The translations under genes were made by a program, and so were the position numbers. Positions 3,787 through 26,792 of a stretch of 64,000 nucleotides of DNA are shown in pieces. The notes under the pieces are model-generated. The model saw only the letters and a program-made list of their open reading frames with translations. It was not told the origin of the DNA and made no database searches. Position 1 is the stretch's first letter; each line of letters begins with the position of its first letter. Source of the stretch: Litorimonas cladophorae (GTDB lineage: Bacteria > Pseudomonadota > Alphaproteobacteria > Caulobacterales > Maricaulaceae); contig NZ_BMYV01000001.1 of assembly GCF_014652455.1 (NCBI RefSeq), forward strand, positions 744,001-808,000. Direction: 5' to 3'.

Positions 3787-4057
3787 AGTCTGTGAAGAAC
3801 GACCCGCCCGGGCTTCCGATAAACACACCCAATAAATAGACGGCAAACAGAATGAGAAGTTGCCCGAAAAAGAGATAAACACCGTCGATTAACATATTTT
3901 GGTCAGGGGCCTGGGGCGTGCTTTTTAGATTTTTTCGCCGCGCCGAAGCAAAAACGAGTGTCGACAGCAAAGCGATCAAGAAAACGAACCAGACGCGGAC
4001 GCCGAAATAACCAGCGACACCGCCAAGCAGGAGTAAGAGATAACCAAGATATTTCAT
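3764..4057 (-). CDS. Small hypothetical membrane protein
   Basis: 97 residues with three hydrophobic stretches (about 2-16, 22-38 and 60-82) separated by a basic loop (SARRKNLKS). No family recognised. The gene converges on rarD and overlaps its end by 23 bp, and it starts about 50 bp from the end of the next minus-strand spacer. Hydrophobic pattern and a clean ATG support a real inner-membrane protein, but the function is open. Confidence 0.6.
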   Translation of the reverse strand: MKYLGYLLLLLGGVAGYFGVRVWFVFLIALLSTLVFASARRKNLKSTPQAPDQNMLIDGVYLFFGQLLILFAVYLLGVFIGSPGGSFFTDFMTGKRA

Positions 4058-4170
4058 ATTGGGCTCACTGACTGAATTGGCCCAGAGAGTAAAGTGCTCA
4101 CCGCGTATTGCTCACAGCCCATGAAGTGACCGCCTAAGCTGCATTAGACAGCGGGACGGCCACACTCAAA

Positions 4171-6099
4171 CTACTCTGCAAGAATGTCACTGATACGGCG
4201 TTGAGCGATCGGATGGTATCCAGCTTTGGCTTCAGCGAAGATGCGGTTCGCCATCTCGGCTTGACCATTCTCCTTTAGCGCGCCGTAGAGACGGTAGATA
4301 AATTTACCGCGGCCAACGGTCATGAGAAACTCTTCCAGCGCAGGATAGGCAGGCTCATACCCCCCTTCAATGGCTTGCATGTACCATGCAAAGGCTGTCT
4401 CGGCGTTTGCGGTGCCTGTGAAAGCATAAGTTTCATCGAGAACGTCTAGGGTTTCAACACCGACATCGCCGAAATCATCGAGACTGTTTAGCATGTGAAG
4501 CCATTCATGTGTGCTCCACTCTTTGGAGGCCGCGAGCATTTCATCGCCATTGCTATCTCCAGCGAGCCAAGTACCCAATAGTCCAGTGACCTCATCAAAC
4601 GCATCAGACTGCGGTGTCCGCGCGGTCGACGGAAGGCCAGGCCCATACACCCAGGCGTCTAGTTCTGCGCAGGTTAAAGCGTCTGGATTATCTTTGTGCA
4701 AATTCTCGTGCAGATAGGCGATGAAATCTTCCGTGGTCACGGATTGGAAGGCATTGTCGTTAAACCAAGCCTTTAGGAAGGGATCAAAGGCCTCACGTCC
4801 AAACCGATCTTCGAGGAAAAACAGAAAATTTGCGCCCTTCAGATAAGACACGAGGGTAAAGGCGTCGTCAGGATGCGCCATGTCATCAGGCAGTTTCAGA
4901 TGCGTCAGCTCTGGCCGCTTGGCCTCGGAAATGGCCCGTTTTAAACCCTCCATATCAAGCACCTGTTCCATCACCGCGCGGCGTTCTCCGTAGAGCTCTT
5001 CCATCACGCGGTTTTCGACGTAGCTCGTAAAGCCTTCATTCAACCACGCATCGCGCCAGCTCGCATTTGTGACGAGATTGCCAGACCAACTATGGGCCAG
5101 CTCATGGGCTACAACATTTGTCAGAGATTTATCACCCGCAATCAGCGTTGGCGTCATGAAGGACAAACGCGGATTTTCCATTCCGCCAAAGGGGAAACTC
5201 GGTGGCAAGACAATCAAGTCATAACGCCCCCAGCGATAGGGTCCGTAAAGTTCTGTATTGGCAACTTCCATCATGGGCGTTTCTGCAAACTCTTCGGCCG
5301 AGGCGTCTAAAATATAGTCTTCGGCATAGACGCCAATCGTGTCGTTGATCGCTTTGAATTTGATATCACCTACCGCGATCGCGATAAGATAGCTCGGGAT
5401 CGGCTGCGGCATGGAGAACGTCCAATTGCCATCTGCATCTTGCCCGTCTTGCGAGGCACTCATCAGAGGTAACAAGCCGTCAGGGACACGCAGTGAGGCT
5501 TCGTAAGTCAAACGTACGGCCGGTGTGTCCTGAACAGGCAACATCGTTCGCGCATTGATCGCTTGGGCTTGCGAGAAGAGATACGGCTTCTTCTTGCCCG
5601 CCGTCTGCGCTGGGGTCAGCCACTGCAATCCCTCTGCTGTCGGACTGGTTTCATAAATGATCCGAACATGCTCCGCCTCGGTCCCGATGGAAATATTCAG
5701 GGCTGAACCCAGAACGGAGTCCGCATCAGCCAAGGTATAATCAGCCGGCATCCATCCGCCTTCGGTCTCAAGCGCAACCGCTTTGATCAGAAGGTCTTTC
5801 GTATCGAGTGTAAGCGTTTGAGCCTCAGGTTTAAGGCGTTCAAATCGGAGCGTCACCGCACCGTCTAGAACCTTGCGATCAAAATTCACATCCAAGTCGA
5901 GCGCCGCATGTTTGACGACCACCTCTTGGTAATTCGCGTAGGTGAATTTGTCTGCTGTGAAAAAACGCTCGGCAGGCGCCACGGTTTCAGTCGTCGCGAC
6001 CTCTGTCGGCTCTGCCGTTGACGTATTCGGCGAACAGGCCGCTAGGGCGAAGCCCGCCGCAGTGACGAGGGACAGGGTGACCAAGCGAGTATTCGACAT
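4171..6099 (-). CDS. M1-family metallopeptidase, exported lipoprotein (leukotriene-A4-hydrolase-like)
   Basis: 642 residues. A signal peptide ends in a lipobox (LAAC, Cys22), so the protein is probably lipid-anchored in the envelope. The gluzincin zinc site HELAH is at 332-336 with the third ligand in NEGF at 354-357, and the substrate-binding GGMEN motif is at 305-309. The C-terminal helical domain resembles the leukotriene A4 hydrolase/aminopeptidase branch. It likely trims N-terminal residues from peptides outside the cytoplasm. It is divergent from another exported peptidase (M20), suggesting a shared peptide-scavenging role. Confidence 0.93.
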   Translation of the reverse strand: MSNTRLVTLSLVTAAGFALAACSPNTSTAEPTEVATTETVAPAERFFTADKFTYANYQEVVVKHAALDLDVNFDRKVLDGAVTLRFERLKPEAQTLTLDTKDLLIKAVALETEGGWMPADYTLADADSVLGSALNISIGTEAEHVRIIYETSPTAEGLQWLTPAQTAGKKKPYLFSQAQAINARTMLPVQDTPAVRLTYEASLRVPDGLLPLMSASQDGQDADGNWTFSMPQPIPSYLIAIAVGDIKFKAINDTIGVYAEDYILDASAEEFAETPMMEVANTELYGPYRWGRYDLIVLPPSFPFGGMENPRLSFMTPTLIAGDKSLTNVVAHELAHSWSGNLVTNASWRDAWLNEGFTSYVENRVMEELYGERRAVMEQVLDMEGLKRAISEAKRPELTHLKLPDDMAHPDDAFTLVSYLKGANFLFFLEDRFGREAFDPFLKAWFNDNAFQSVTTEDFIAYLHENLHKDNPDALTCAELDAWVYGPGLPSTARTPQSDAFDEVTGLLGTWLAGDSNGDEMLAASKEWSTHEWLHMLNSLDDFGDVGVETLDVLDETYAFTGTANAETAFAWYMQAIEGGYEPAYPALEEFLMTVGRGKFIYRLYGALKENGQAEMANRIFAEAKAGYHPIAQRRISDILAE

Positions 6100-6203
6100 T
6101 CTGCGACTCCAATATGCGTTGCCTGACCCTAATGGGTTTCTTCGACGCCTCCTAGGTCAGACTTCTGAACTTCACATGTTCTATTCTATTTTGCCTCCTT
6201 TGT

Positions 6204-6220
6204 TGGAATATATATTTCCA
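6204..6220. promoter_or_regulatory. AT-rich palindrome between divergent peptidase genes
   Basis: TGGAATATATATTTCCA, a 17-base near-perfect inverted repeat, lies in the 180-bp space between the two divergent peptidase lipoprotein genes. It could be an operator or a promoter core. No known regulator site is recognised. Confidence 0.35.
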
Positions 6221-6282
6221 CATGCGAGCGTGGGTGTGTAACAGGATCGGGATATCCCTGCGCAAAATATTGGTTGAATATT

Positions 6283-7635
6283 ATGAAATCTCAGTCGAAA
6301 CATCTTTGTCGAACTTTTGTTTTATCAGCTATTTTACTCTCGGGATGCTCAAGCGTCGCGTTAAACGAACCGATGCAAGCCAAGGCAACCGCTCAAGCGC
6401 AGACCGACGATGTTGCGATCAACACGGTCTATAAAACTGAAATCTTCGCGCTCAAAACCCAAGCGGCTATTCAGGCTGCGTTTGATACCATCAAATCACA
6501 CCGTGAAGAAAATAATCGCGACATGATCGAACTCAACGAAATCCCGGCGCCACCCTTTGGCGAAGAGGCACGGTCCAAACGTGTCGCCGAAATGTTTCGC
6601 GAGGCCGGACTCACCGATGTGAAAATTGACGAAGTCGGCAATGTTATTGCGATGCGACCCGGGCGGACGGGGGCCAAAACAATCGCGATGGGCGGACATA
6701 TCGACACCGTCTTTCCGATTGAAACGGACGTCACCGTCAAACGCGAAGGCGACACTTATATTGCCCCTGGCATTGGCGACAATACGCGTGGCGTAGTCGT
6801 GATGCTTAGCCTGCTCAAAGCCCTCGAAACGCACAATATTCAAACTGAGCATAATTTGATGTTTGTCGGAAATGTTGGCGAAGAAGGCTTGGGTGATTTG
6901 CGCGGTATCAAGCATCTTTATCGCGACGGCGCGCCGAAAATCGACACGTTTATTGCGGTAGATGGCGGCAGTGATGATCGCGTGGTTTACGGCGGTGTCG
7001 GATCCTATCGCTACCGCGTGACCTTCAAGGGACCAGGCGGGCATAGCTGGGGAGATTTCGGTGATGCCAATCCGCACCATGCTTTGGGGCGCGCCTCCAC
7101 GCTTTTCGCCGAACGCGCTAAAAAAGTTGCCAGTGAAGGCCCAAAAACGAGCTTTAATATTGGCCGTATTGGCGGCGGAACCTCCATCAACTCCATCCCA
7201 TTTGAGAGCTGGATGGAGGTCGACATGCGCTCGGGCAATGTCGCCAAACTCGATGAGATGGACGCTGTGTTCAAACAAGCCATGGCAGACGGACTTGCGG
7301 CGGAAAACGCGGCCCGCACACGTGGCGGTGAAATTACAGTCGACGTCAAAAAAGTGGGAGATCGTCCCGTTGCAAATGGCGACGCCAGCAGTTCCCTCGT
7401 CCAGCAAGCGATGGCGGCAATCGACGCCTTTGGCCTTGATCCGCAATTACGGATTTCATCGACTGACGCCAATATTCCGATCTCGAAAGGCTTGCCCGCA
7501 ATTACAATCAGTCGCGGCGGCATTAGCGCAGGTGCGCATTCTTTCAAAGAAACCTGGACGGATAAAGACGCACACATCGCAATCCAAATCGCTTTACTAA
7601 TCACGTTGGCGCAAGCCGAATATGCCGCGCCCTAA
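6283..7635 (+). CDS. M20/M25/M40-family zinc peptidase, lipoprotein
   Basis: 450 residues from the ATG at 6283, which gives a basic N-terminus and a lipobox (LLSGC, Cys22). A TTG three codons earlier is less likely. The M20 metal site is visible: GGHIDT (His139, Asp141), GIGDNTRG (Asp166), GEEG (catalytic/ligand Glu200-Glu201) and AVDGG (Asp227), with the dimerisation domain after about residue 240. Such enzymes are aminopeptidases or dipeptidases; the exact substrate is unknown. It is divergent from the M1 peptidase and both are predicted envelope lipoproteins. Confidence 0.9.
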   Translation: MKSQSKHLCRTFVLSAILLSGCSSVALNEPMQAKATAQAQTDDVAINTVYKTEIFALKTQAAIQAAFDTIKSHREENNRDMIELNEIPAPPFGEEARSKRVAEMFREAGLTDVKIDEVGNVIAMRPGRTGAKTIAMGGHIDTVFPIETDVTVKREGDTYIAPGIGDNTRGVVVMLSLLKALETHNIQTEHNLMFVGNVGEEGLGDLRGIKHLYRDGAPKIDTFIAVDGGSDDRVVYGGVGSYRYRVTFKGPGGHSWGDFGDANPHHALGRASTLFAERAKKVASEGPKTSFNIGRIGGGTSINSIPFESWMEVDMRSGNVAKLDEMDAVFKQAMADGLAAENAARTRGGEITVDVKKVGDRPVANGDASSSLVQQAMAAIDAFGLDPQLRISSTDANIPISKGLPAITISRGGISAGAHSFKETWTDKDAHIAIQIALLITLAQAEYAAP

Positions 7636-7840
7636 AACATACGGCCAAGCGCGAAGGCTTACAGCCCATCTCGTGACTGCCAAGGCAAAATCATAAGCGG
7701 GACGGCCCGCAGGGTCAGCACTCGCGACGGAGTACCGAAGATAATAAATTTTGTTTTACGCAAGAGATAACCCTGCGGCTGTGACGTTTTACGCAAAGGC
7801 CTCGTTAGTATGTCTCCCGCTTCACCGCTTGCGCCGTCTC

Positions 7841-7860
7841 GTTGAAACCAAAGTTTCAAC
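7841..7860. repeat. Perfect inverted repeat, 8-bp stem
   Basis: GTTGAAAC, a CAAA loop, then GTTTCAAC. It sits inside the gene-poor stretch and is followed by a second small hairpin (CCGC GTAT GCGG). No T-run follows, so it is not a typical terminator. Confidence 0.6.
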
Positions 7861-8197
7861 TCATCGAACGCAGCCGCGTATGCGGTCAGGCTCCAATGCG
7901 TAAGATAATAGGCGAAGCTGTCAAACCAGTCCTATTTCACACACAGCCTTTCGAACCAGTAAGCGACGTCTCACCTGTCCCATGCCCGAAAGAACCTGTG
8001 TAGTATGACACGACTTTTTGAGGCGGGGATCATTCTCTTTGAGACTGCGGTGTTATGGCGGATTGTGTAGGTTCAAAAACGGGAAAGATGTTCCCTTTGG
8101 GGCTTAGGGGACGTTACGCGATAGCCTAAAAATCGATCCTGTGAACCGATTTTAGTCGGATAAGTCCCCGGCAATGGCAAAGCAGACCCTTAACAGT

Positions 8198-23152: not shown

Positions 23153-24822
23153 TAGATTTCACCTTCAGGAATTTTATCGCGATAGCGGTTTGTAATCGGA
23201 TAACGGCGGTCGCGTCCGAAATTTTTTGTACCGATCTTTACACCCGGCGGGGCTTGTCGGCGTTTATATTCAGCGATGTAGAGCAAGTTTTGGATCCGCT
23301 TTACATCGGCAACGCTATGGCCGCGTGCCACGATCTCTTCAATCGGCAATTCCAGTTCAATCAGGCACAGCAAGAGATCATCCAATACGTCATATTCAGG
23401 CAAGCTGTCGCTGTCCTTTTGATCATCGCGCAGCTCCGCTGACGGCGGTTTTGTGATAATCCGCGTCGGGATCGGCGTTTCCGCCCCGAGCAAATCCTTT
23501 GGCGTGTTTTCATTCCGCCAATTGGCGAGGGCGAAAACTTCGGTCTTATAGACGTCTTTTAGCGGGTTATACCCGCCACACATATCGCCATAGAGTGTGG
23601 CGTAACCGACCGCCATTTCGGACTTATTCCCTGTCGTGACGAGCATGGGCCCAAACTTATTTGATAGAGCCATCAGGGTCAGGGCGCGGCTACGCGATTG
23701 GATATTCTCTTCCGCTGTTGAGGGTGCGAGATCTTTGAAAAAGGGCTCAAGCATTTCGTCGAAAGCGTCAATGGCCGGTTTGATCGGAATTGAGTCATAC
23801 CGACATCCCAGACGTTCGCAGCAGGCTTCCGCATCTGTCAGTGAGTCGCCCGACGTGTATTTAGTGGGCATCATCACCGCCCAAACGCGGTCGGGACCAA
23901 GCGCATCGACCGCAATTGTCGCCGCCATGGCACTATCAATGCCGCCGCTCATCCCTAAAATTATTTGCTTAAATCCATTCTTATTGACGTAATCGCCAAG
24001 GCCCAAACACATGGCGCGCCAATCCGCTTCATAGCCCGACAGTTGCACCTCTTTTTTAGCGTCAACACAGGTCCAGACATCGTCAATCTTTTCCCACGTC
24101 GCGAGATCGTAATCATCGACAAAACTCTTGAGCGATTGTACGATCGACCCATCTGCGGCCATTGAAAATGATGAGCCATCGAACACAAGTTCGTCTTGGC
24201 CACCGACCTGATTAACATAGACCAGAGGCAGGCCCTCCGTGATGACTTTTTCGCCCAAGGCTGCGACCCGTTCGGTCAGGGCCGTGCGGCGCCAGGGCGA
24301 CCCATTTGGCGAGATCATAATCTCCGCGCCTGCGTCTTTTAAATGATCTGCAACTGTGTCCTGCCAGAGGTCTTCGCAAATAGGCAGACCAATAGAAATG
24401 CCATTAAAATCAACAGGCTGAGGCAGATGTCCTGCCGTAAATACGCGCGCTTCATCAAAGACGCCATAATTCGGGAGATGATATTTATACCGCACATTTG
24501 TGATCAAGCCCTCACGCATGAATAGCGCGGCATTGTACAATTTTCCCGCGTCCAACCATGGCGCGGAAAAGACAATCGCAGGTCCGTCTTTTGTTTCCGC
24601 CGCAAGGCGCAAACAGGCCGTTTTACAATCCGTCACAGCCGACGGGCGCAGCACCAAATCCTCAGGTGCGTAACCGATAATGAAGAGCTCGGAGAAGACG
24701 ACAATATCGGCTCCATCGGCGGCCGCTTTGGCGTAATGCAATTGGGCTTTTTTCAAATTGCCAGCGATATCGCCCACGACTGGATTGGCTTGGATGGAAG
24801 CTATTTTGAGGCGCTGAGTCAT
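23152..24822 (-). CDS. nadE: Glutamine-dependent NAD+ synthetase
   Basis: 556 residues. The N-terminal nitrilase-type glutaminase domain (about 1-270) shows VFSELFIIGYAPEDL, and its catalytic cysteine lies in GLPICEDLWQD. The C-terminal ATP-pyrophosphatase domain has the SGGIDS loop. The enzyme amidates deamido-NAD using ammonia channelled from glutamine. It heads the nadE-gltX pair. Confidence 0.97.
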   Translation of the reverse strand: MTQRLKIASIQANPVVGDIAGNLKKAQLHYAKAAADGADIVVFSELFIIGYAPEDLVLRPSAVTDCKTACLRLAAETKDGPAIVFSAPWLDAGKLYNAALFMREGLITNVRYKYHLPNYGVFDEARVFTAGHLPQPVDFNGISIGLPICEDLWQDTVADHLKDAGAEIMISPNGSPWRRTALTERVAALGEKVITEGLPLVYVNQVGGQDELVFDGSSFSMAADGSIVQSLKSFVDDYDLATWEKIDDVWTCVDAKKEVQLSGYEADWRAMCLGLGDYVNKNGFKQIILGMSGGIDSAMAATIAVDALGPDRVWAVMMPTKYTSGDSLTDAEACCERLGCRYDSIPIKPAIDAFDEMLEPFFKDLAPSTAEENIQSRSRALTLMALSNKFGPMLVTTGNKSEMAVGYATLYGDMCGGYNPLKDVYKTEVFALANWRNENTPKDLLGAETPIPTRIITKPPSAELRDDQKDSDSLPEYDVLDDLLLCLIELELPIEEIVARGHSVADVKRIQNLLYIAEYKRRQAPPGVKIGTKNFGRDRRYPITNRYRDKIPEGEI

Positions 24823-25045
24823 AGGCCTGCGCTGTACCCCTGCCCGTCGAATTTAGCAAATACTCCGATTCACCTTCGAAAACTTTTTTCATTTTTTCGC
24901 TTGCGCAAAATTATTCTCAGCTCTAGAGGCCGCCTCCCGCTGCTCCGGCAGCCGAGCTTCTACGGTTCGGGTTCTTTGAATTCCCGACCAGTGCGCCCTG
25001 TCTCTGACGGATGCGTATGCTGTGAGCCGGATGGCGTGTTGCGGG

Positions 25046-25115
25046 TCTTGTGTAGCCAAGTGGTAAGGCGCTCGATTTAGATTCGATGAACATGGGTTCG
25101 ATTCCCATCACAATT
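25046..25115 (+). tRNA. Degenerate tRNA-like gene, anticodon loop TTTAGAT (TAG)
   Basis: A cloverleaf can be drawn: a D arm GCC/GGC with loop AAGTGGTAA, an anticodon stem (CTCGA/TCGAT, outer C-T mismatch) with anticodon TAG at 25078-25080, and a perfect T arm ATGGG/CCCAT with loop TTCGATT. Only the inner five acceptor pairs form (TTGTG/CACAA). The outer two are mismatched and no CCA follows. A TAG anticodon would read CUA (Leu), yet the long variable arm of tRNA-Leu is missing and the D-arm side resembles tRNA-Gln. It is probably not an ordinary elongator tRNA. Confidence 0.6.
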
Positions 25116-25193
25116 TGTACTGTAGCTCAGTCTGGATAGAGCACTAGATTAGTAATCTAGCTGGCGAAGGTTCGAATCCTTCCAGTAACACCA
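25116..25193 (+). tRNA. Degenerate tRNA-like gene, anticodon AGT
   Basis: It abuts the previous tRNA-like gene with no spacer. D stem GCTC/GAGC, perfect anticodon stem CTAGA/TCTAG with loop TTAGTAA (anticodon AGT at 25151-25153), variable loop CTGGC, perfect T stem GAAGG/CCTTC with loop TTCGAAT, and an encoded CCA. The acceptor stem forms only five inner pairs (TACTG/CAGTA). AGT would read ACU (Thr), but bacteria rarely carry an A34 Thr tRNA. The body is well preserved while the acceptor end is abnormal, as in tRNA mimics. Confidence 0.65.
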
Positions 25194-25255
25194 TAGGCCC
25201 TTTTACGGCCAAGCGACTGTAAATCGCTTCTCATAACGGCATCCGGGCGGATGTC
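25194..25255 (+). ncRNA. tRNA-like hairpin group (anticodon-arm mimic GTA)
   Basis: Three consecutive hairpins follow the second tRNA-like gene: GGCC/GGCC with a 7-base loop, then a perfect 6-bp stem AAGCGA/TCGCTT with a canonical 7-base anticodon loop CTGTAAA (GTA, as in tRNA-Tyr, at 25219-25221), then GGCATCC/GGATGTC with loop GGGC. No acceptor stem can be found, so this is at most a partial tRNA mimic or a decayed tRNA. Confidence 0.4.
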
Positions 25256-25646
25256 AGGGAGGTAGATACGGCGTTAAAGACTGTCCCGAACATGCCTTTT
25301 GGCGTGGGCGACGACCTGTCCGCGACCCGCATCCACCGACCTTACGAGAGATGACCGATCACGCGGCGGACCCTTTGGTGCGCCACGTGTGACAATGACG
25401 AAAATGCGTTGCCTGTTCACAGGTATCGCAGACACGACAGTAGACCACACGGCCCGCCATATGCGGTGCCCCGCGGATCCGTTGTCCTCGCGTCAGCATC
25501 TCGCCCGGATGTCTATGCAATTCACGCGGCCCTCATGGGGAGGACCGCCAAACCGGGCAAATCGCCCCTCAACACCGCGAGCCCTCATTTGGGCCCAAAC
25601 TCAAAAGGACCGTCACAGGTGAATTAGACAACACAGGAGTATCGTT
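25256..25646. other. Non-coding, hairpin-rich leader upstream of the slipin gene
   Basis: About 390 bp with no believable protein; a 107-codon frame at 25299-25622 has no family features and odd composition. Several short inverted repeats occur (CATGCC TTTT GGCGTG, CCTGT TC ACAGG, GGGC AAATC GCCC). The base composition and many CGG triplets match the slipin gene, so the leader and gene may have arrived together. The slipin ribosome binding site AGGAG lies at the end. Confidence 0.45.
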
Positions 25647-26792
25647 ATGACCAAAGTGACACACAAATTATTAGGCCTTCGGGTCGTTATCCCCGAAATG
25701 GAACGGGCTGTTATTCTCAAGGATGGCATCTTTGAGATTATCCTCAATCCAGGTCGGCACACCATAGGCACTTTGGGAACGCAATCGCATTACGATGTTC
25801 GGAACTTTCGCGTAAATGCGGAGCCCGTCATTAGCGAGCTTTTAACGTCTATCCTGCGGAATCACGGCCCCGCCGTGGTGGATCATTTGACCGTGTTTGA
25901 AACGGCCGCCGATGAAATGGCGATTGTCTCGCTCGACGGGACACCTGCCTTTCTTGTGCCGCCCTTGACACGGAAAGTCGTCTGGACGGATGCTGGCCTG
26001 TGGTCGACCGAGATCGTCAATCTGTCAGATGGTTTCGTCATGACCGACGCCATGTCGCGACGGTTGATGACCTTGCGGTCAGATTTCATCAAGCGGTTCA
26101 AGGTGGAGCACGGTCAAATCGGCCTGCTCCACGTTGATGGAAAAGTGGTTGGAGAGCTTGTCCCGGGTGGGCACGCGGTCTGGTCATACGGCAAGGTCAT
26201 CGCGGTCAAACTCGTCGATACGCGTGAAAACGCGCTCGATGTGACGGGCCAAGAAATCCTGACAAAGGACCGGGTTTCGATCCGGGCCAACTTGTCTGCG
26301 ACGTACCGTGTTGTCGATCCCGTTCTTGCCGTGACTGCGGTGAAGGACTTTGTCGACACGTTGCACCGGGCCTTGGGTTCGGCGTTCCGTCGGTCTTTGG
26401 CGACCAAAACACTCGATGAGGTTTTGGCCGAGAAAGGCGCGGTTGACGCTGAGGCCATGGCGGCTGTCGTGGCTGAAATGGCCGCAGCGGGTGTGAAAGT
26501 CTCACACGTCACCTTGAAGGATATCATCCTTCCGGGCGAGATGCGGGATATCTTGAACACCGTTGTATTGGCCGAAAAGGAAGCCGAAGCTGGCGTAATC
26601 CGTCGGCGGGAAGACGCTGCCGAAACACGGGCCTTGCTCAACACAGCCAAAGTCATGGCGGATAACCCGGCCATGATGCGGTTGAAAGAGCTCGAAGCGC
26701 TCGAGTCGATCTCCGCAAAGGTCGGCACATTAACCGTCCACTCAGGCACAAAAGGCCTGATGGAAGATTTGGTTTCGCTGTCTACGAAGTAG
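25647..26792 (+). CDS. Slipin-family SPFH/band-7 domain protein
   Basis: 381 residues. The N-terminal region (about 1-140, VIPEMERAVILKDGIFE and NPGRHTI) is followed by an SPFH core (about 145-330) with ENALDVTGQEILTKDRVSIRANLSATYRVVDP, then a charged alpha-helical stretch of Glu/Ala/Arg. No N-terminal transmembrane helix is visible, unlike canonical slipins. Family knowledge: such slipins occur in bacterial RNA-repair operons with RtcB/RtcA and tRNA-like RNAs. About 18 of 24 arginines are CGG, whereas neighbouring genes prefer CGC, suggesting transfer. It follows the tRNA-like genes; no rtcB, rtcA or rtcR is in the window. Confidence 0.88.
   Translation: MTKVTHKLLGLRVVIPEMERAVILKDGIFEIILNPGRHTIGTLGTQSHYDVRNFRVNAEPVISELLTSILRNHGPAVVDHLTVFETAADEMAIVSLDGTPAFLVPPLTRKVVWTDAGLWSTEIVNLSDGFVMTDAMSRRLMTLRSDFIKRFKVEHGQIGLLHVDGKVVGELVPGGHAVWSYGKVIAVKLVDTRENALDVTGQEILTKDRVSIRANLSATYRVVDPVLAVTAVKDFVDTLHRALGSAFRRSLATKTLDEVLAEKGAVDAEAMAAVVAEMAAAGVKVSHVTLKDIILPGEMRDILNTVVLAEKEAEAGVIRRREDAAETRALLNTAKVMADNPAMMRLKELEALESISAKVGTLTVHSGTKGLMEDLVSLSTK

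Follow-up and report, generated by a model that had tools for sequence, protein, structure and literature searches.

Two tRNA-like cloverleafs lie head to tail upstream of a slipin gene in the window, that is, in the whole stretch of 64,000 nucleotides of Litorimonas cladophorae DNA analysed here, and raise the question of whether they are tRNAs at all. The sequence-only reading had favoured a tRNA mimic or regulatory RNA over decoding tRNAs, a proposal that is now supported by the covariation of the stems, by the linkage to one slipin subfamily and by the presence of RtcB beside the module outside Alphaproteobacteria. The elements of the locus are the following.

24964..24989, + strand: 5' hairpin (GGTTCGGG...CCCGACC), the probable 5' domain of the RNA; seen by eye
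24986..24995, + strand: GACCAGTGCG, a version of the conserved CCGGTGCG-like element; motif count
25010..25020, + strand: GATGCGTATGC, a version of the conserved G[TC]AT[GA]C element; motif count
25046..25116, + strand: tRNA-like unit 1, anticodon loop TTTAGAT, five inner acceptor pairs, no CCA; ARAGORN, Rfam tRNA model, anchor parse, covariation
25116..25190, + strand: tRNA-like unit 2, anticodon loop TTAGTAA, five inner acceptor pairs, then ACCA ending at 25193; ARAGORN, Rfam tRNA model, anchor parse, covariation, RNAalifold
25196..25210, + strand: anticodon-arm-like hairpin 1, GGCC CTTTTAC GGCC
25211..25229, + strand: anticodon-arm-like hairpin 2, AAGCGA CTGTAAA TCGCTT
25647..26792, + strand: slipin/stomatin-like SPFH (Band 7) protein of 381 residues; Pfam Band_7, E 2.9e-29

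Anatomy of the tandem pair

The description of two head-to-tail cloverleafs without a spacer was borne out by both ARAGORN and the Rfam tRNA model, which place them, abutting (spacer 0), at 25046-25190 of the + strand. ARAGORN named them tRNA-Leu(tag) (25045-25117) and tRNA-Thr(agt) (25116-25193), and the Rfam tRNA model assigned 53.9 bits to unit 1 and 56.3 bits to unit 2 (gathering score, 29), values that rank only 39th and 37th, respectively, among the 40 tRNA matches of the genome. In a fixed-anchor parse, the acceptor strands of unit 1 (TCTTGTG/CACAATT) and of unit 2 (TGTACTG/CAGTAAC) both form pairs 3-7 with pairs 1-2 broken, in agreement with the five inner pairs and two mismatched outer pairs first read by inspection. 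Also as first read, a CCA follows unit 2 only (as ACCA), and the anticodons are UAG, in a unit 1 body that lacks the long arm, and AGU in unit 2.

Unit 2 is closest to tRNA-Arg(ACG) and tRNA-Trp of the same genome (80% identity), while no clear source tRNA was found there for unit 1, the best being tRNA-Ser at 74.6%; the unit 1 D arm, judged by eye, resembles that of tRNA-Gln. A DNA search with the pair returned mostly ordinary tRNAs and, among the matches listed, most of unit 1 was covered only in genomes G010 and G013 and in the window itself. The 296-nt region 24980-25275 did not fold better than its shuffles (z 0.12).

It is very improbable that the units function in translation as stress-induced tRNAs with an unusual decoding role. 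The Rfam scores and the CCA of unit 2 are what such tRNAs would have, and in three relatives (L109, L112 and L113) unit 1 carries seven acceptor pairs followed by ACCA. However, an elongator tRNA is characterized by a seven-pair acceptor stem with a CCA end and by an anticodon that stays constant among orthologs: in the window each unit has five acceptor pairs, and the 28 last units that could be parsed, including a probable misparse in L117, have 19 different anticodons. Furthermore, ordinary tRNA-Leu(UAG) and tRNA-Thr(GGU, UGU) genes are present elsewhere in the same genome.

The slipin gene and its linkage to the tRNA-like units

The gene noticed 450 bp downstream of the pair encodes, as had been stated, a slipin: it has the SPFH/Band 7 domain and is stomatin-like, stomatin being the nearest solved structure to its profile (E 5.4e-33, with one stomatin entry contributing 16 chains). 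Orthologs are sparsely distributed, with, besides that of the window, 9 genomes out of 100 relatives at E < 1e-50 (two partial), 5 out of 385 genomes of the class at 1e-60 and 22 out of 398 of the phylum at 1e-70; 9 records of the plasmid collection matched at 1e-25, five of which were taken into the comparison of loci. The slipin, the only protein queried there, had no match in the defence-system library. A phage origin was considered and set aside, with no phage match at E 1e-15 and one contig in viral_contigs.

Loci were compared in a set of 42, made up of the window, 36 extended genome loci and the 5 from the plasmid collection. By scanning 760 nt upstream, a T-arm motif was found ahead of the slipin gene and in the same direction in 41 of the 42 (in the exception, L119, the sequence extends only 103 nt upstream, and this locus was also left out of the hairpin and motif counts given below). 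The remainder of these loci has the motif at a rate of 0.021 per 760 nt on a single strand, which excludes a chance origin. The position 5' of a slipin/stomatin-like gene, one of the marks of the SPFH-associated class of tRNA-like RNAs, is shared by the window and its relatives. There are two T-arms in 33 loci, one in 6 and three in 2, that is, at least two in 35; of the two loci with three, L121 has three units, and in L112 the third T-arm, at −153, looks spurious. The first and second T-arms are 60-77 nt apart, except in L073 (24 nt), and roughly 170 to 550 nt separate the end of the last unit from the point at which the slipin match begins. By the stricter measure of ARAGORN, at least one tRNA was called just upstream of slipin in 31 of the 42 loci and none in 11, where the units have degenerated further or, in L119, lie beyond the available sequence; at 20 loci of more distant SPFH-type matches ARAGORN called none. 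Compared over these loci, the RNA and the slipin evidently make up one conserved module.

Two loci of the set deserve a separate description. In L073, from Subdoligranulum (Bacillota), the closely spaced T-arms lie at about 5655-5695 upstream of slipin, with RtcB and RlaP downstream, and this is apparently a strongly reduced tRNA-like RNA outside Pseudomonadota. In E. coli L069 (pSTEC639_1 record), positions 5436-7889, between yjbD/rluF and lysC, comprise a sigma-54-like site, a very degenerate single tRNA-like unit, slipin and RlaP. At least 80% of L069:5000-7900 is present in 1614 of 5426 complete E. coli genomes, and among the matches listed none names an RNA feature at this locus.

Selection on the fold

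Of 66 units parsed, 44 passed the arm checks, among them 28 last and 13 first units; those with an unparsed D or anticodon stem were dropped, and T-arms for which no D arm was found were left out. The unit 2 alignment was obtained from the 28 last units by removing L117 and L130 (close to L129), giving 26 sequences, 25 of them distinct, and that of unit 1 from the 13 first units by removing the poorly parsed L115 and L132, giving 11. For unit 2, 87.4% of the cells pair and the covariation score is 0.510, versus 0.157 in shuffled alignments; for unit 1 it is 0.820 versus 0.249, and in both cases none of 500 shuffles scored as high. Since the units are of tRNA origin, some of this covariation may go back to differences among their parent tRNAs. 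The arms, the loss of which in relatives had been named as a finding that would speak for ordinary or decayed tRNAs, are instead conserved with strong covariation, and the comparison points firmly to a cloverleaf maintained by selection.

The acceptor end behaves differently. Counted over 25 rows of unit 2, the three outermost acceptor pairs fail to form in 18, 17 and 16, and RNAalifold, left unaided, omits all three, so that over the compared loci the outer acceptor stem of unit 2 appears to be mostly broken; the stem is fuller in the 11 unit 1 sequences. A selected cloverleaf with a spoiled acceptor end is another mark of the SPFH-associated class.

These results bear directly on the possibility that the pair consists of duplicated tRNAs in decay, the alternative offered by the sequence-only reading. 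It is what the broken outer acceptor pairs, the odd anticodons and the low rank among the tRNAs of the genome would suggest at first sight, yet it is scarcely credible in view of the compensatory stem changes over the 25 distinct unit 2 sequences, of a like acceptor defect in distant relatives and of the association with a single slipin subfamily; within the limits of the data, conservation refutes it. True decay can be recognised in G014, a genome of the same genus, where the slipin is also broken: at the syntenic site only two fragments of it, with 37 and 18 aligned residues, are left, and ARAGORN calls no tRNA there, with the 5' element still recognisable by eye. Slipin and tRNA-like units have, to judge from these remnants, decayed together in G014. 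Between the remnants of the RNA and those of the slipin (L170, about 4038-5400), another ORF starting MSLETIYYIGQ was seen by eye.

Elements flanking the units

Upstream of the tRNA-like units, GGG...CCC hairpins followed by a CCGGTGCG-like sequence were recognised by eye in many loci. In its loose form, the CCGGTGCG-like element is present in 26 of 41 loci versus a fraction of 0.098 of the shuffles and, in its strict form, in 18 of 41 versus 0.027, the window being outside these 18. The G[TC]AT[GA]C element was found in 19 of 41 loci, including the window, versus 0.034 of the shuffles. Just upstream of the 5' domain, at 24952-24970, there is a terminator-like hairpin, of a kind counted twice where 1.1 were expected, close to the shuffle mean.

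On the 3' side, the loop of hairpin 2 is identical to the anticodon loop of tRNA-Tyr(GUA) of the same genome, and that of hairpin 1 matches no real one. Immediately downstream of the last unit, 23 of 41 loci have an isolated hairpin with at least four pairs and a CTNNNA[AC] loop. The corresponding frequency is 0.50% among 12300 shuffled windows and 0.27% among 2211 windows drawn at random from these loci, an enrichment that is partly post hoc because the motif was defined after the loops had been seen. In the other 18 loci, which include those of Burkholderia and Photobacterium and the enterobacterial ones, the hairpin is absent. Alternatively, the isolated hairpin could be the last remnant of a third tRNA unit, three units being present in L121.

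The RNA-repair context

RtcB is encoded in the flanks of the slipin gene in all 14 non-alphaproteobacterial whole-genome loci and in 3 of the 5 from the plasmid collection, and in none of the 23 alphaproteobacterial loci, two of which (L101 and L119) are on short stretches. Genome-wide, 23 of the 37 carrier genomes have RtcB, namely, all 14 non-alphaproteobacterial ones and 9 of the 23 alphaproteobacterial ones, the other 14 of which have none; RlaP was found in 10 of the 37. Ten loci have RtcR no more than 4 kb upstream, and in 9 of these it is divergently adjacent. In all of these 9 a putative sigma-54 site, with one mismatch, precedes the RNA, starting 128-193 nt ahead of the first T-arm; judged by the general consensus, such sites would be sigma-54 promoters. 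The tenth locus, L132, in which RtcR and RtcB form a separate upstream group, is without the site. Among the 29 loci with no RtcR match in the flanks the site is present in one, E. coli L069; L106 and L126, with an RtcR-like match elsewhere in the flanks, were counted in neither group, and L119 was not scored. Outside Alphaproteobacteria, the comparison links the module to RtcB, often behind an RtcR/sigma-54 type of site.

The window is different. A search of its genome for RtcB, RtcR and RlaP found none of them, and this copy has no linkage to repair genes, a further mark of the SPFH-associated class that the 14 non-alphaproteobacterial genomes with the module show for RtcB. The best sigma-54 candidate before unit 1 has four mismatches, the window-wide count of such sites is at chance and the candidate was rejected; no sigma-70 site was found at 24700-25800. 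The suggested tie to RNA-repair operons holds, therefore, for the relatives and not for this copy, because its genome is without RtcB, RtcR and RlaP. More broadly, since RtcB is missing from the flanks of all 23 alphaproteobacterial loci and from 14 of the 23 genomes altogether, a repair role would not be general unless another ligase is used.

The arrangement of the loci also allows a quite different reading, namely, that the pair controls the expression of slipin in cis, as a leader, and does not act in trans. There is a parallel in thrS mRNA, which has a tRNA-like operator, and the same-direction position upstream of slipin in 41 of 42 loci, as well as that behind a sigma-54 site wherever RtcR is divergently adjacent (9 loci), would be expected of a leader. 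The distance left between the last unit and the slipin match, and the fact that two or three cloverleafs with a hairpin exceed what a leader needs, speak against it, neither of them decisively, and a leader is considered unlikely.

Relation to known systems

SPFH/Band-7 RNA-repair modules with a novel cognate tRNA-like RNA, ligases and a nucleotidyltransferase were reportedly described by Burroughs and Aravind in 2016; the SPFH protein with a tRNA-like RNA is what their module has in common with the present one. An individual case is Pcar_R0061 of Pelobacter carbinolicus, which a 2012 genome paper describes as a 'mutant tRNA', degenerate, with an odd anticodon, a spoiled acceptor end and reciprocal mutations in the stems, directly 5' of a stomatin-like gene that is followed by rtcA and rtcB, with rtcR divergent; the authors suggested that it takes part in RNA repair or editing (PMC3543383). 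The degeneracy, the reciprocal stem changes and the position 5' of a stomatin-like gene are all found again here. Unlike Pcar_R0061, described there as a single unit in one genome, the present RNA has two units and anticodon-arm-like hairpins, in a genome without rtcR and rtcB. In the rtc locus of Pseudomonas aeruginosa, the SPFH protein PaFlo8 is found with rtcA, rtcB and rtcR, according to the part of the 2026 paper that deals with the locus, and shares with the slipin of the related loci an SPFH gene in an RNA-repair setting; unlike the slipin locus, no word beginning with tRNA occurs in the main text of that paper (PMC13086221).

Y RNAs, given as an example by the sequence-only reading, have as their partner the ring-shaped Ro protein. 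By the Rfam YrlA model (RF02553) the pair is not a Y RNA: no match in the window reached the gathering score, and the weak matches in 3 of 9 relatives were at best 26.8 bits versus 69. Thus, unlike YrlA, the RNA does not reach the model and has a slipin as its neighbour. The likeness lies in the tRNA-like domain and, for the relatives, in the setting, YrlA being placed in an RtcR-controlled RNA-repair operon in the sections of the same study that also report that RtcR is activated by cleaved tRNAs and that the 5' half of tRNA-Leu(UAG) was the best binder among the three tRNA 5' halves tested (PMC7790460). The UAG anticodon of unit 1, found here and in three relatives, is in this respect an intriguing coincidence and no more.

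In the literature searched, with most subscription journals outside it, no paper was recognised that deals with tandem units, a ligase-free form or the hairpins. A tRNA mimic beside a stomatin-like/slipin gene has published precedents; what is new here, as far as could be seen, is the tandem form of Alphaproteobacteria, which is free of the ligase, together with the anticodon-arm-like hairpins.

Proposed role

By taking all this into account, we think it quite probable that the pair is a structured noncoding tRNA-like RNA of an RNA-repair/SPFH module, present in the window in a reduced form without RtcB, RtcR and RlaP. The RNA would consist of a 5' domain, tRNA-like unit 1, tRNA-like unit 2 with its shortened acceptor stem and the isolated anticodon-arm-like hairpins. 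It would be made together with the slipin, would not be aminoacylated and may bind the slipin cage. With less certainty, the varying anticodon loops may mimic those of real tRNAs and act as bait that attracts anticodon-loop nucleases or, alternatively, the RNA may be an assembly platform for cleaved tRNAs; the outcome would be that real tRNAs are spared or that tRNA cleavage is handled locally. The copy in the window would be a reduced form functioning without RtcB in the same genome. The report that YrlA fragments were not detected in Salmonella when tRNAs were cut, in the section of the study on this experiment, counts against this explanation (PMC7790460).

The bait mechanism can be put forward as a tentative hypothesis, itself rather doubtful, in the form of an array: the cloverleafs and lone hairpins would copy the anticodon loops of several tRNAs, shift fast between lineages as the nucleases change and bring nuclease or cleaved RNA to the slipin cage, free of RtcB in many Alphaproteobacteria. 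Loop identity was scored against the anticodon loops of 37 normal tRNAs, almost all of which belong to the genome of the window. Among the isolated CTNNNA[AC] loops, 17 of 24 (8 of 13 distinct) are identical to a normal anticodon loop, compared with 3.1 expected from random triplets and 6.5 from permuted ones. When seven-base loops were taken regardless of the motif, 18 of 51 matched (expected, 3.5 and 6.7 in the same order), and for the units the matches are 10 of 30 loops of unit 2 or single units (2.9 and 5.8) and 1 of 13 of unit 1; these counts are not independent, because the loci are related. It follows from the low figures for the units that the case for bait is carried for the most part by the isolated hairpins.

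RNA genes of this type are easily annotated as ordinary tRNAs or pseudo-tRNAs, or missed. If the bait reading is true, they would represent an RNA-based defence of the tRNA pool, and the orphan bacterial slipins would gain a nucleic-acid partner. With the RtcB-free form, of which the window provides an example, the function of the RNA and slipin may be separated from that of the ligase for testing.
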